Part shown: positions 159 through 6,074 of the stretch, piece by piece
How positions within the stretch are numbered: position 1 is the stretch's first letter
Layout of the letters: each line of letters opens with the position of its first letter
NCBI GenBank assembly: GCA_913065105.1
Contig: CAJXZZ010000020.1
Coordinates: forward strand, 1 to 40,065
Source: an uncultured Gammaproteobacteria bacterium
GTDB lineage: Bacteria > Pseudomonadota > Gammaproteobacteria > SZUA-229
Length of the DNA stretch: 40,065 bases
Direction: 5' to 3'
Notes under the pieces: generated by a model
What the model was told of the DNA's origin: nothing
Seen by the model: only the letters and a program-made list of their open reading frames with translations
The model's database searches: none
Translations under genes and position numbers: made by a program

Positions 159-1733
159 ATGCCAGATAATCAGCACAGTTTTGTAATTCCTGACAATCAA
201 AGTATTTCGGCCCTGGTATCACTATTACAGGAGACTTTCTCTGTTCAGATGCAGGCAGAAACGGTTTATCACCGCGTGTTTTATGACACCTTTGACTGGC
301 GACTTGATAAGAATGGCTCAGCACTCGAAGTGCATGACGATGGCCAGACAAACAGGATTTACTGGCGGAAAGATAAGGATGGCCAGTTAAAAATACAGCT
401 GGGAGTTAAGAAAATACCGCGCCTGGCCGTTGATCTTCCTGCTGGCGCGTTTCGCCAGAAACTGCAGTCAGTCATCTATGTTCGTGAACTTTACCCCCGC
501 ATCAAGCTAAGAATTAAACGCCAGTCACTTGCTGTGCTGGATAAAAACAAAAAAATAGTCGTCCGTCTAAATTTTGATGTGTACTGGTATAGTCCATCAA
601 AATTGCATGCCGCCAGGGTGCTGACCAGGCGTCTGACAATAAAGGCAGTAAAAGGTTATGCGAAAGAGTACCAGCGGGTTGAAGACTTCTTTCTGAGCAT
701 GCCGCTACCCATACCACTCCAAACCGCCCAGGATAATGTGATGAAACTCGCGCTGATTACAATGGGTGTGAGTACCGACGAATATACCACCAGACTGAAC
801 CTCCGGCTTGATCCTGAATTACCGGCTGAACAGGTGTTAAAGGAAATCCTGTTTCGTTTGTTTGAGATCATGCGGCAGAATACCGCCGGCTGTATCAAAG
901 GAAGAGATACGGAATTTCTGCATGATTATCGTGTTGCTATAAGAAAAATACGCATCGCTTTAAAACAGATCAATCATCTACAGCCGCAAGCAGCCAGTAC
1001 TGCAGATAGGAATTTCTTTTCAGCGCTGGGTAAATTAACGAATCCTGTCAGAGACCTTGATATCTTCCTGTACCAACTTGAGAATTATCAGCCAGATTTC
1101 GACGCATCAAGCTGGTTACAGCTGCAAGTCTTACGCGACTATCTTTTACTTTCGAGAGCAGAGGCGCAAAAGAAATTTGTTGAAGAACTTAAATCTTCCC
1201 GTTACCGCGAGACTATTAAGCAGTGGCGTGATTATCTCGAGCACTCTGATAAAGAAAATATCGCACCTGATGAACCCGGCAAAGAAGTCTATAAACTGTC
1301 CGATGAACTTCTTCTGCGTTATAACCAGAAAACGCTAGCACAAGGCAAGGCTATTACCAGGAACAGTGATGCCGATACAATGCATGAGTTGCGCAAAACC
1401 TTTAAGAAGCTGCGCTATCTGATGGAGTTTTTTCGCGGTCTTTACCCGGCAGGAAAAAAGCTGCGTGAATTAATTCAACTATTAATCGCTGTACAGGATG
1501 ACCTCGGGGAATTCAATGATCGGTATATTCAGATTGGCATGGTGAAAGCGTTTATCGATCAGAGCAATAATGAAGAGGCAATAAAAGCCTCTGAACAGAT
1601 AATAAAAATTCTTCAACAGCAACAACACGAAGCAGGCAACAGGTTTAAGGATAGTTATGCCGCTTATGCTTCATCTGCCAACCAGGGTACATTCAAGGAG
1701 ATGTTCGTCGATTATTACGGGAGTAAAAATTAG
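159..1733 (+). CDS. CHAD domain protein with degenerate CYTH-like N-terminus
   Basis: About 524 aa. CHAD domains are conserved histidine-rich helical domains that bind polyphosphate in characterised members. The CHAD part covers roughly residues 220-515. It shows the paired signatures HDYRVAIRK (about 255-263) and MHELRKTFKKLRYL (about 408-421), each placing His next to basic residues on a helix. Residues 30-210 resemble a CYTH/triphosphate-tunnel fold (YDTFDWRL, then strands with IYWRK and KIQL), but the N-terminal ExExK metal motif is not visible, so this half is probably not catalytic. No signal peptide is seen, so it should be cytoplasmic. A TTG two codons upstream is possible; I chose the ATG. 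The ParA gene follows 3 bp after the stop, which implies co-translation. The CHAD assignment is firm; the CYTH part is tentative. Confidence 0.88.
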   Translation: MPDNQHSFVIPDNQSISALVSLLQETFSVQMQAETVYHRVFYDTFDWRLDKNGSALEVHDDGQTNRIYWRKDKDGQLKIQLGVKKIPRLAVDLPAGAFRQKLQSVIYVRELYPRIKLRIKRQSLAVLDKNKKIVVRLNFDVYWYSPSKLHAARVLTRRLTIKAVKGYAKEYQRVEDFFLSMPLPIPLQTAQDNVMKLALITMGVSTDEYTTRLNLRLDPELPAEQVLKEILFRLFEIMRQNTAGCIKGRDTEFLHDYRVAIRKIRIALKQINHLQPQAASTADRNFFSALGKLTNPVRDLDIFLYQLENYQPDFDASSWLQLQVLRDYLLLSRAEAQKKFVEELKSSRYRETIKQWRDYLEHSDKENIAPDEPGKEVYKLSDELLLRYNQKTLAQGKAITRNSDADTMHELRKTFKKLRYLMEFFRGLYPAGKKLRELIQLLIAVQDDLGEFNDRYIQIGMVKAFIDQSNNEEAIKASEQIIKILQQQQHEAGNRFKDSYAAYASSANQGTFKEMFVDYYGSKN

Positions 1734-1736
1734 GCT

Positions 1737-2489
1737 GTGAAAACTATTGCGATTTATAATATTAAAGGCGGTGTCGGTAAGACGGCGACAGCGGTAAACC
1801 TTTCTTTTCTGGCTTCACTCGATGGCGCTAATACGCTGTTATGGGATCTTGATCCTCAGGGTGCTGCCAGTTATTACTGCAGGATAAAACCTGAGATCAA
1901 AGGCGGTGGCAAAAAACTGATCGATGGTAAGAGCAGTATGCAGGAGTCTGTCAAAGGCACTGATTATGAAAACCTGGATCTATTACCAGCAGATTTCACC
2001 TATCGCCATATGGACACTTTTCTGGATCAGACAAAAGATCCAGTAAACCGTTTTAACAAACTGCTCAAACCGTTTGCAGAAGAATATGATTATGTTTTCC
2101 TGGATTGTCCACCGAGCATCTCATCATTATCAGAAAGTGTTTTTGCTGCCGCAGATATACTGCTGGTACCAACGATACCCACCACACTTTCATTGCGAAC
2201 TTATCAGCAGATCATGCAGTTCTTTGAGCAGCAGGGTATAGAGCAGACTAAAGTGTTGCCATTTTTCACTATGGTCGACAGGCGTAAAAATATGCACCGT
2301 TTAATCGTGCAGCGTCCACCTTCATTTATGTCATCCGTTCTAAAGAGTCATATACCGTATGCCAGTGAAGTTGAACGCATGGGGACTCATCGTGCGCCTG
2401 TGACTGTATTTGCCGCCCGGAGCAGGGCTGCACGGTGTTATACGTCGATGTGGGATGAGTTACGGTCACATATATATTTATTGCCGTAA
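1737..2489 (+). CDS. ParA/MinD-family ATPase
   Basis: 250 aa with a GTG start 3 bp after the CHAD stop. The deviant Walker A motif KGGVGKT spans residues 10-16 and carries both the signature Lys10 and Lys15. The A' region is WDLDPQGAAS (about 37-46) and the Walker B-like segment is YVFLDCPPS (about 117-125). Length fits an orphan cargo-positioning ParA with no N-terminal helix-turn-helix, unlike plasmid P1-type ParA. No ParB gene or parS-like repeats are adjacent, so chromosome segregation is unlikely. Such ATPases position cargos by dynamic binding to nucleoid or membrane. Linkage to a CHAD protein suggests a polyphosphate-associated cargo, which is inference. The family call is certain; the role is not. 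Confidence 0.92.
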   Translation: MKTIAIYNIKGGVGKTATAVNLSFLASLDGANTLLWDLDPQGAASYYCRIKPEIKGGGKKLIDGKSSMQESVKGTDYENLDLLPADFTYRHMDTFLDQTKDPVNRFNKLLKPFAEEYDYVFLDCPPSISSLSESVFAAADILLVPTIPTTLSLRTYQQIMQFFEQQGIEQTKVLPFFTMVDRRKNMHRLIVQRPPSFMSSVLKSHIPYASEVERMGTHRAPVTVFAARSRAARCYTSMWDELRSHIYLLP

Positions 2490-2506
2490 CTTGAAACAGA
2501 TTCATC

Positions 2507-3025
2507 ATGAAGGCAAATCTCTCAGCAATAAAAGGCGACATTACAACGGCAAAGGTGGATGCCATTGTTAACGCGGCAAACCCGATGATGTTAGGTGGCG
2601 GCGGCGTTGATGGCACAATACATAGAGCGGCGGGTAGACAGCTATTTGAAGCCTGTGAAGCGGTAGAAGTTAAAGAGGGCGTTCGTTGCCCGATCGGTGA
2701 AGCCAGAATAACGCAAGCCGGCAATCTCAATGCTAAATATGTAATCCATACCGTTGGGCCAAGATATGCGATCGACCCAGAGCCTGAATTTTTACTTAAC
2801 TCTGCCTATAAAAACTCATTAGATCTTGCGCTGCAACATAGATGTAAATCTATCGCGTTTCCTGCAATATCATGTGGGGTGTATGGCTACCCGATCGATG
2901 AAGCGGCGAAAATCTCAATCGACGTATGTAAACAAAACAAATATAATGACATCCAAATTTATTTTTATCTGTTTCAGGATGATGCATTTAACATCTGGAA
3001 TAACTTAATAAATAGATCTGAATAA
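2507..3025 (+). CDS. Macro domain protein, ADP-ribose/O-acetyl-ADP-ribose hydrolase type
   Basis: 172 aa, a single macro domain over almost the full length. The N-terminal KGDIT, then VDAIVNAANPMMLGGGGVDG followed by IHRAAG, is the diagnostic adenosine/distal-ribose binding region of the MacroD/YmdB branch. YVIHTVGP and the later SCGVYGYP loop complete the fold. Members of this branch remove acetyl from O-acetyl-ADP-ribose or hydrolyse ADP-ribosyl esters on proteins. It is probably cytoplasmic. It lies 17 bp downstream of the ParA stop in the same direction, so it may be the third gene of that unit, although macro-domain genes are commonly placed independently. Transcription then converges on the minus-strand esterase gene. 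Confidence 0.92.
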   Translation: MKANLSAIKGDITTAKVDAIVNAANPMMLGGGGVDGTIHRAAGRQLFEACEAVEVKEGVRCPIGEARITQAGNLNAKYVIHTVGPRYAIDPEPEFLLNSAYKNSLDLALQHRCKSIAFPAISCGVYGYPIDEAAKISIDVCKQNKYNDIQIYFYLFQDDAFNIWNNLINRSE

Positions 3026-3120: not shown

Positions 3121-4578
3121 CTAATCAGGTGCTGCTTGCACGGTTTTTCTGGTTAACGGTTTAACTGAGCGTGTTTCATCAAACCAGATGTATTCATCAA
3201 ATTGTCGTGGTAATGAGGCGTAAGAATAATGTTTTTTTAATTCGTCTTCGGGATCGTATGTTGTGCCTATTGCGCGCTGCAGTCTTTTTTTGAGCAGTTT
3301 TTTGCGCGTTATATTCTGTATTGGTTTACGCATTGTAGATGTACGCAGTGGCAACATAAAATTATCCGCTTTTACATCGTGAAACAAACTTTCATAACTG
3401 TCTTTATGAGAAGGCGGTATCTGCATGACTTTCATCGGCGCTCCCCATTCAGAGGCTGCTGACACCGTACCATGGTCGGTACCGAAGCCGATCAGGTAGG
3501 CGTCATCTGCAAAAACTTCGCGAACCCGTTGGCCAAGATTAAACTCACCACGCGCACTCATATCTGTTGCGCGGGCGTCACCAATATGTGAATTATGTGC
3601 CCAGACAACTGCTTTCGAGTTAAGACCACGGTGATTCAGAATCGCCAGCAAGGTGTCGAACATATTTTGATCGCGTTGATTCCATGAATCATTATCGTCT
3701 TGGTACATAGTGCGATAAAAACGTTCGCCATTTCTTACCAATCGCGCATTCTGTACTGCATTAAAATATCGTTGTTGATCTTCCTTAGTATCGGTCTGTC
3801 TATAAAACTTTCGATGTTTGAGCAAATCCTGCAATACTGTATATACCTCGTATCCACAACCGCGATATCTGCGTGACTGCATATCACGGCTATATAATGA
3901 TGGGTCATTAGCCCATGGCTTCAGGCATCCATAAGACCAACGTGCAGCTTCTGCTGCTTTTGGGTCAACATCCTCTAAATAACCGAGTACAGCTTCAATT
4001 GAGTTGAACAGGTTGTAGATATCCAGTCCATAAAATCCAACTGCATGTTCGGCTGAGTTAAAACGCTGGTTATAGTCTTTCAACCAGTGGGTAAACGTTA
4101 ATACTGAATGATTCGCCCACATCCATGACGGAAACCCTGTAAACAGTTTAATTTTAAAGTTGGGTTTCTTACCAGACCCACGGATAAAATAATCGATGCT
4201 TGTTGCATCTGGCCAGTCAGCTTCAACCGCGACGATATTAAAACCTTTCTTCTCAATCAGCTCCCTGGTAATGCGTGCGCGCATGTCATAAAAATCAGCC
4301 GTGCCATGTGTGGATTCTCCCAGTAATACCAACCGGGAATCACCGATGCGATCAAGCAGGCCATCCAGATCTGCTGAATCGATGTCGGAAAAATGTTCGC
4401 TCGAATCATAGATAAGCTCAGGCAGTGTAGTGTTCGTCCACCCGGTCTGTTCCGTAGTGTGTTTTGAGACTTGTTCGACGGTGTCAGTCTGTGAAGCGGC
4501 CGCACTGATCAGTGGTACAGATAACAGTAACCAAAAAATATGGGTGCTGTATTTTTTAGTTATTCGTCTGTTCAGCAT
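3121..4578 (-). CDS. Exported erythromycin-esterase-family protein
   Basis: 485 aa. The family motif LLGESTHGTADFYDMRARIT is followed by a FNIVAVEADWPDA segment, and WAHNSHIGDAR carries a further conserved His. These define the EreA-like fold (PF05139), whose characterised members hydrolyse macrolide lactones; many chromosomal members have unknown substrates. The N-terminus has basic residues, a hydrophobic stretch (FWLLLSVPLISAA) and an alanine-rich cleavage site, so it is probably exported. That differs from cytoplasmic resistance esterases and argues against simply calling it a resistance gene. It is the last gene of a four-gene minus-strand run, 53 bp after the DUF2779 gene. Confidence 0.85.
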   Translation of the reverse strand: MLNRRITKKYSTHIFWLLLSVPLISAAASQTDTVEQVSKHTTEQTGWTNTTLPELIYDSSEHFSDIDSADLDGLLDRIGDSRLVLLGESTHGTADFYDMRARITRELIEKKGFNIVAVEADWPDATSIDYFIRGSGKKPNFKIKLFTGFPSWMWANHSVLTFTHWLKDYNQRFNSAEHAVGFYGLDIYNLFNSIEAVLGYLEDVDPKAAEAARWSYGCLKPWANDPSLYSRDMQSRRYRGCGYEVYTVLQDLLKHRKFYRQTDTKEDQQRYFNAVQNARLVRNGERFYRTMYQDDNDSWNQRDQNMFDTLLAILNHRGLNSKAVVWAHNSHIGDARATDMSARGEFNLGQRVREVFADDAYLIGFGTDHGTVSAASEWGAPMKVMQIPPSHKDSYESLFHDVKADNFMLPLRTSTMRKPIQNITRKKLLKKRLQRAIGTTYDPEDELKKHYSYASLPRQFDEYIWFDETRSVKPLTRKTVQAAPD

Positions 4579-4631: not shown

Positions 4632-6074
4632 TTATGAACACACTTTATCAATAATCGCTAACATGGCGTAGGTATCAAGTTCGCAATAGGCCAGCATATC
4701 CGCATACAGTGAATCCTTTTCTTGTTTAGATAGTTTTCCGCTAATTATTTCAAGATAAGCACTCTGTGCCATCAGGCCATCCTGTACATCTCCCAGGTCT
4801 GAATAGCGTAATTCTGGCAGCAGGCAGGTGAGAACATTCTTGATGCTCCAGGAACCTTTCATGGCCGGGTGATAATAATATTTCTTCATGACGGGTAGCA
4901 GATCAAAAACCCGTGTATTTATCACCAGTAATTGCTCTTTTAAATCTTCATATTCGCCAGCAAGGCTTTTTATGATGCCTTTTTCAAAAGACTTGTTGTA
5001 TACGATTACCGGTCCTGCTGTTCCGCAGGCAGCAATCAGTGACTCGGCGAATTTTCGTCGTGGATCTTTACCGCTGACATCGAGAAAATCTTTATGTGTG
5101 GTGGTACCGTCTCGCTGTTGAATATGGCATGACCACTGAAAGGGCAGCTGCTGACTCGGCCTGGTGCCTGACCAGATGGGCACGGCGAAATTGATCGTCT
5201 CAAAATCAAGATAATAACGCGGGTAATCTAATCGTTTAAGGATATGAGCCGCATTCGATTCTAATTCGGCGTGGCCATCGATGGTTACCCTGCGAACTTT
5301 CAGATGTGTTTCACTGCTCAGCATGTCGATCGGTATATCTCGAATATCGTAAATCGCATCATCGTGAAGCTTGCGTATGGCGACTGCAGCATTTGGCAGC
5401 CAGCTGACCGGGTAGTCGCCATCCTGCTTCTCGCAATAAGATTTAAATTCACAGTTGTAAGGGGTCTTGCAATGACCATCGACATGATGGACCGGTTCTT
5501 CTTCTGTTATGTTCTGTCTGATATGCGCCACTGCATCTGAGATAGTGTGGCGGTGGGCGATGACTCTTTCTGCGATGTCTTCACGGATGAACAAGCCATC
5601 GTAGTTACCGTCTCCCTGGTAGACGAAGTTTTTATTGAGGTACATCAGCTCGATACGATTGATTTTTATGCCGGCGTTGGTTAACACCATGTATTGTACA
5701 GTGACATCATCGATATAATTATCTTTAACCGAGCTTGCAGATTTAACTTCGATCAGGTTCCACATAGAATCATCACGTTGCAGGATATCGACAAAAACTT
5801 CTGTGTCCTGATAACGAAATCCAGCTTCGAAGATTGCGACAGTGTTTTCGTCCTTGAGATAGTTACTGGTTTCTGTAAATGGATCGACATTTTCCTGAAA
5901 ACGATTAACCAGTACCCCGTCAGAAAATTCCTTACGTGCCTGCTCGCCGACAGCGATGCCAGATTCTGCTAACGGTGATTTTTTTGAGATAGCCAGCTCA
6001 GGATGGTTGAGCATGAGATACAGGCGTTTTTCGCACTGCAGAGCCGCGAGGATTCTGGTTTTGCTCAGAACCAT
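4632..6074 (-). CDS. DUF2779 protein: Cas4-like nuclease fused to DEDD-type exonuclease fold
   Basis: 480 aa. The N-terminal half looks like a Cas4/RecB-type PD-(D/E)XK nuclease. Asp96 sits in VFVDIL, the E-x-K pair is at residues 109-111 (LIEVKSAS), and Cys14, Cys202, Cys208 and Cys214 match the four-cysteine iron-sulfur pattern of Cas4/AddB-like nucleases. The C-terminal half begins with YYLDFETINF (Asp290, Glu292), a DEDD exonuclease motif I, and ends near CELDTYAML, which suits the last acidic motif. This matches the uncharacterised DUF2779 family. The start ATG lies 9 bp beyond the stop of the upstream membrane-protein gene, suggesting coupling. No cas genes or CRISPR repeats are nearby. 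The nuclease role is inferred from motifs. Confidence 0.85.
   Translation of the reverse strand: MVLSKTRILAALQCEKRLYLMLNHPELAISKKSPLAESGIAVGEQARKEFSDGVLVNRFQENVDPFTETSNYLKDENTVAIFEAGFRYQDTEVFVDILQRDDSMWNLIEVKSASSVKDNYIDDVTVQYMVLTNAGIKINRIELMYLNKNFVYQGDGNYDGLFIREDIAERVIAHRHTISDAVAHIRQNITEEEPVHHVDGHCKTPYNCEFKSYCEKQDGDYPVSWLPNAAVAIRKLHDDAIYDIRDIPIDMLSSETHLKVRRVTIDGHAELESNAAHILKRLDYPRYYLDFETINFAVPIWSGTRPSQQLPFQWSCHIQQRDGTTTHKDFLDVSGKDPRRKFAESLIAACGTAGPVIVYNKSFEKGIIKSLAGEYEDLKEQLLVINTRVFDLLPVMKKYYYHPAMKGSWSIKNVLTCLLPELRYSDLGDVQDGLMAQSAYLEIISGKLSKQEKDSLYADMLAYCELDTYAMLAIIDKVCS

Follow-up and report, generated by a model that had tools for sequence, protein, structure and literature searches.

A conserved CHAD-ParA gene pair amid phosphate-storage genes: a possible ATP-driven positioning system for polyphosphate

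The window analysed here is a stretch of 40,065 nucleotides from an uncultured gammaproteobacterium, running from base 1 of a contig in a 3.06-Mb draft genome. Its first genes encode a protein with a CHAD domain (ATG start), an orphan ParA-type ATPase (GTG start) and a macro-domain protein (Table 1); the coordinates, gaps and Pfam families match the original prediction, which had placed the CHAD and ParA genes 3 bp apart and the macro-domain gene 17 bp further on, and all three lie on the same strand. The Pfam match of the CHAD protein covers residues 230-460, and no credible Pfam match was found for residues 1-229. The gene 5' of CHAD lies outside the contig, and the 57 bases 5' of the CHAD gene do not code for the end of a Na/Pi transporter, the gene that precedes CHAD in a sister genome. 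The pair had also been described as lacking ParB and parS, and this holds: neighbour clustering revealed no ParB-like gene adjoining the pair in the loci examined, a scan at three or fewer mismatches found no parS-like 16-mer anywhere in the window, and the short repeats near the two genes resemble chance pairs. Downstream lie genes for an Erythromycin-esterase family protein with a signal-like N-terminal stretch (3121-4578; PF05139, E 6.7e-122) and for a DUF2779 protein that weakly matches a Cas4-like nuclease (4632-6074).

Table 1. Features of the CHAD-ParA locus, in window coordinates.
Feature	Position	Strand	Evidence
TTM-like (CYTH) + CHAD protein, 524 aa	159..1733	+	PF05235 E 4.7e-46; AlphaFold pLDDT 89; fold matches
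N-terminal triphosphate-tunnel (CYTH) fold, aa 2-202, EXEXK absent	162..764	+	VIA; Z 14.9, rmsd 3.5, 182 residues to 6yp4
Long-type CHAD domain, aa 209-521	783..1721	+	Z 31.9 to 6qv7; Z 31.2 to 6qva (polyphosphate complex)
Gap between CHAD stop and ParA GTG, 3 bp	1734..1736	+	
ParA-type deviant Walker A ATPase, 250 aa	1737..2489	+	AAA_31 E 1.1e-33; KGGVGKT
Walker A KGGVGKT with signature lysine K10	1764..1784	+	
Macro-domain protein, PRK00431 type	2507..3025	+	PF01661 E 6.3e-43; NF001664 200.2 bits vs cut-off 200

Judged from gene order, the macro-domain gene is an incidental local neighbour. It had been suggested, with a chance neighbour as the alternative, that the macro-domain protein may link cargo handling to ADP-ribose metabolism, and a three-gene unit of this kind would fit the 17-bp gap and the shared strand. 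None of the 37 other ParA loci described below carries a macro gene, and the relatives of this gene in the window's genus (52-55% identity) are found on other contigs; in the sister genome that has the pair, the macro relative (53%) is on a different contig from it. A third member of the unit is thereby rejected, the metabolic link has next to no chance of being right, and the chance neighbour is what survives of that suggestion.

The remaining two genes were proposed to act as one unit, and a search for conserved CHAD-ParA neighbourhoods in other genomes was named as one way to check it. With ParA alone as the query against 84,980 bacterial and archaeal species we obtained 37 loci, and in 23 of these a CHAD gene lies immediately 5' of ParA on the same strand. 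The record names of the CHAD-linked loci include Gammaproteobacteria, Desulfobacterota, Rhodospirillales, Chloroflexi and Actinobacteria, several of them metagenome-assembled genomes whose labels may err. The junction between the two genes ranges elsewhere from a 4-nt overlap, which is frequent and typical of translational coupling, up to tens of bases. A profile built from the ParA-linked CHADs was run on two unbiased samples totalling 615 genomes, 397 from Pseudomonadota and 218 from Thermodesulfobacteriota (the phylum of locus L014). The Pseudomonadota matches fall into two score classes, nine at 266-613 bits and 98 at 164 bits or less; seven of the nine high scorers are followed by an intact ParA of this family and an eighth by one shortened to 130 aa, while the ninth has its ParA on another contig, against 0/98 low scorers adjoining a ParA of the window family among the matches listed. 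Thermodesulfobacteriota gave 8/9 high scorers next to ParA and 0/3 low scorers. Pooling both samples, adjacency to an intact ParA stands at 15/18 for high scorers and 0/101 for the others among the matches listed (p=2e-16, a nominal value given the non-independence of the genomes, though several families and two phyla are covered). Within the Pseudomonadota sample, the ParA family and a CHAD of any kind also tend to co-occur (52/62 against 152/335). Conservation of the pair was thus found, as the single-unit proposal expected, and the outcome of no conservation did not occur. Two loci show damaged pairs: in a Desulfobulbaceae genome (L034, 6035-6873) the ParA 3' of CHAD is split into two overlapping frames, by a frameshift or an assembly error, and at L094 (2699-5066) a decaying pair consists, in this order, of CHAD, a ParA cut to 130 aa and a CYTH gene.

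These counts bear on a reading already in print. A folD-ppk-parA-CHAD cluster has been drawn for Acidithiobacillus, with its ParA taken to serve chromosome or plasmid partition (PMC6416229; PMC10892726), and an ordinary partition ParA that adjoins CHAD by chance would agree with the plasmid-borne members, with the database name "ParA family partition" and with a CHAD-less relative near a KilA-N gene on a Pontibacter plasmid. Conservation rules this out as a general account, adjacency being 15/18 as opposed to 0/101 and the pair being kept on chromosomes of several phyla; no ParB-like gene adjoins the pair in the loci examined, the window has no parS, and the three Paracoccus plasmids inspected have CHAD directly beside ParA amid CYTH and NUDIX genes. 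We consider partition very improbable.

Phylogenetic analysis separated the ParA-linked CHADs, as a single clade, from the canonical CYTH-CHADs (support 100/100), and placed CtCHAD, UniProt Q8KE09, inside the ParA-linked clade (97/93). Distances in the ParA and CHAD trees are correlated over 37 pairs (r=0.83; 0/5000 permutations as high), and when distant clostridial ParAs serve as the outgroup, the deepest branches of the ParA tree are all CHAD-linked. Many relatives of the window ParA have no adjoining CHAD and different neighbours; on this tree the CHAD-less groups (Methylococcaceae, Solitalea and others) look derived. The two genes are separated in Methylococcales, yet 4/5 genomes retain both ParA and the clade CHAD, the latter adjoining sixA and a phosphate-binding (Pst-like) gene. 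The distribution of the pair is patchy, a few per cent of the genomes in each sampled phylum; within the window's genus it is confined to 2/18 genomes, that of the window and one sister (G011), which argues for gain and loss of the pair, probably through horizontal transfer.

Some relatives are found in other surroundings. The window's genus also contains a further CHAD belonging to the ParA-linked clade, with no adjoining ParA (L075, 1166-3334, in G011; L076, 1013-3017, in G007), and because this CHAD is related to the Paracoccus type, ParA has probably been lost there. At L058, L060 and L063 (~3.2-3.7 kb) CHAD-less ParA relatives adjoin an RnfH-family protein whose Ala/Lys-rich tail resembles those of AlgP and PhaF, with truA present in some. 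On the conjugative plasmid pMAQU02 of Marinobacter nauticus (L089, 1-10738) a CHAD-less relative lies near phbB, an acetyl-CoA transferase gene and a pyruvate kinase gene, and may be related to PHB.

According to Pfam assignments the pair is surrounded by a phosphate-storage neighbourhood, which includes PPK1, PPK2, a SixA-type histidine phosphatase, a Na/Pi cotransporter with a PhoU domain and small CYTH proteins. The gene order in the sister genome is PPK1 - UspA - Na/Pi transporter - CHAD - ParA; the three Paracoccus plasmids share the order CHAD - ParA - CYTH - NUDIX, and in P. marcusii this set comes right after pstC-pstA-pstB-phoU-phoB. PPK1 is the nearest 5' gene in several loci and adjoins in a minority only; the draft genome of the window itself carries PPK2, and a search of it detected no PPK1. 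We regard the CHAD-ParA pair as a real, old, phosphate-linked unit.

The AlphaFold model of the CHAD protein has two domains. The first matches HpAC1 in its tunnel (CYTH) fold, and the second matches CtCHAD, alone and in its polyphosphate complex, in a fold of two 4-helix bundles (Table 1). The EXEXK motif of active tunnel enzymes is missing from the first strand in 43/43 members of the ParA clade (one chance match occurs at an unrelated position) and kept in 18/20 canonical CYTH-CHADs. An active CYTH enzyme is thereby rejected, and the earlier view of a degenerate CYTH half with a binding rather than an enzymatic role agrees with the modelled fold and the lost motif. The polyphosphate contacts are kept: H255, R258, R262, R298, R419 and Y420 of the window protein correspond to H253, R256, R260, R296, R418 and Y419 of CtCHAD, and every mutationally verified contact is invariant in 43/43 clade members. 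Mutation of H253, R256, R260, R296 or R418/Y419 in CtCHAD weakens polyphosphate binding (PMC6537752), and given the position of CtCHAD within the ParA-linked clade, polyphosphate binding has been measured for a member of that clade. The tunnel residues R109, K132 and Y167, specific to the clade, are candidate contacts for ParA.

A basic, disordered N-terminal peptide of the kind that activates ParA was sought in the CHAD protein by charge and by model, and is absent. The first 30 residues have a mean net charge of +0.4 (-3 in the window protein), and the AlphaFold model places the N-terminus within the folded tunnel domain; any contact with ParA would therefore be unlike that of ParB and McdB. 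The lack of this charged and disordered N-terminus, typical of ParA partners, counts against a positioning role, as do the patchiness of the pair, the absence of a detected PPK1 from the window's draft genome and the many CHAD-less relatives of ParA.

In the ATPase, the residues K10, K15, D37 and D123, among them the signature lysine and the Walker A' and B aspartates, are invariant in 29/29 homologues. The closest solved structure is the ParA 8ray (E 4.7e-36), and the distant PDB matches include FleN/FlhG, ParA/MinD relatives that act as regulators. Of the arginine sites by which Soj/ParA contacts DNA (PMC7229837), the first aligns with an RRK motif (R182-K184), and conservation at the second is not clear. 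It thus appears that the ATPase retains just one (R183 region) of the two DNA-contact arginines known best, which also counts against a positioning role, and the nucleoid is the likely matrix.

Two other accounts keep polyphosphate at the centre and dispense with positioning. In the first, the ATPase would control polyphosphate synthesis or granule number, for example through ATP-dependent recruitment or release of PPK by way of CHAD; the place of PPK1 as the nearest 5' gene in several loci speaks for this, and so does the raising of tunnel enzyme activity by CHAD in ygiF (PMC6537752), while the minority of loci in which PPK1 adjoins and the invariance of the nucleotide-sandwich residues, including the signature lysine K10, as in spatial members of the family, speak against it. 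We hold this account to be rather unlikely. In the second, which we judge improbable, polyphosphate would be a signal and not a cargo: CHAD bound to it would modulate ParA, and through ParA the organisation of the nucleoid or division, at times when phosphate runs short or is being stored. Here the conservation and the phosphate-gene context are identical, and the regulators FleN/FlhG offer a parallel; set against these, the ParA is distinct from chromosomal ParABS, with neither an adjoining ParB nor a parS in the window, and an adaptor next to an orphan ParA is the standard layout of a cargo system (PMC10241942).

The reading that we prefer, with a probability of about 0.6, is that the pair constitutes a ParA-type cargo-positioning system with polyphosphate as its cargo. 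The invariant contacts, the polyphosphate gene context and the conservation of the pair all favour polyphosphate, the cargo that the original prediction had thought likely. Polyphosphate granules occur in many bacteria, and in some they are evenly spaced or centred. Under the mechanism we propose, the CHAD protein would coat the granules, or nascent polyphosphate bound to PPK, and would make contact with ParA in its ATP-bound dimeric form, the dead tunnel domain being a possible contact site; CHAD would then stimulate ATP hydrolysis by ParA and its release from the matrix, most likely the nucleoid, and the resulting gradient of ParA depletion would move and space the granules and split them between daughter cells, as McdA/McdB does for carboxysomes. 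The parts of this reading observed here are the conserved pair, the polyphosphate contacts, the tunnel without a catalytic motif and the switch residues of ParA; from these we infer granule coating, CHAD-ParA contact, ATPase stimulation, a nucleoid gradient and granule spacing. Since the genes are conserved together amid phosphate-storage genes in unrelated bacteria, an ATP-driven device for spacing and apportioning the granules is probable.

One of the closest known systems is McdAB, in which an orphan ParA ATPase likewise adjoins genes for a cargo-binding adaptor and cargo, without ParB or parS, and for which positioning by a Brownian ratchet on the nucleoid is proposed. The pair differs in that the adaptor is not McdB and is a folded TTM-CHAD protein for an inorganic polymer that lacks a basic N-terminal peptide, and in that the window ParA has the signature lysine, which is missing from the beta-McdA of S. 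elongatus. Neither an McdB adaptor nor a carboxysome operon is present at the pair loci, where the adaptor is TTM-CHAD and the neighbours are phosphate genes. The phosins, CHAD proteins on the polyphosphate granules of Ralstonia eutropha, and CtCHAD with polyphosphate share the CHAD fold and the contact residues; no ATPase partner or positioning role has been described for them, whereas here a tunnel without the catalytic motif is linked to ParA. AlgP of Pseudomonas aeruginosa, and PhaM, PhaF and PhaH for PHB, are similar in spacing granules by way of the nucleoid, and differ in being DNA-binding tethers without a known ATPase. A survey of ParA/MinD cargos that concerns Halothiobacillus names no polyphosphate (PMC10241942), and a review from 2025 gives only AlgP for polyphosphate, with the spacing proteins of Caulobacter unidentified and the use of energy still to be seen (PMC13052382). 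We found no proposal of ParA-driven polyphosphate positioning in the literature searched, preprints and most subscription journals being outside its scope.

In the Acidithiobacillus cluster the ParA gene likewise adjoins CHAD and ppk1; the cluster differs in that the published accounts give its CYTH active site as conserved. Two loci of our own, L126 (3432-6121; SixA-ParA-CHAD) and L091 (2816-5113; CHAD-ParA), have a canonical CYTH-CHAD with intact EXEXK beside a shorter, distant ParF-like ParA (Walker A KGGSGKT and KGGCGKT, respectively). On their sequences they are possibly a second, independent CHAD-ParA pairing, and the Acidithiobacillus cluster may be of the same type; if the origin is separate, this pairing would lend independent support to the link between CHAD and ParA. 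The fullest form of the proposal, a dedicated ATP-driven system for positioning and inheritance of polyphosphate granules in several phyla, made of a dead tunnel-CHAD protein and its own ParA subfamily, and joined by the canonical CYTH-CHAD and ParF-like ParA of L126 and L091 as a pairing that arose separately, has in our estimate about an even chance of being correct.

With this pair a specific ATPase and a specific adaptor can be named, and this in cultured organisms, Paracoccus marcusii and P. aestuarii, in which the genes could be deleted; the sole CHAD crystallised with polyphosphate (CtCHAD) now falls within a ParA-associated clade. If the positioning reading is true, an inorganic polymer joins the known cargos of the ParA/MinD family, and as enhanced phosphorus removal depends on organisms that accumulate polyphosphate, the inheritance of their granules is of practical interest.
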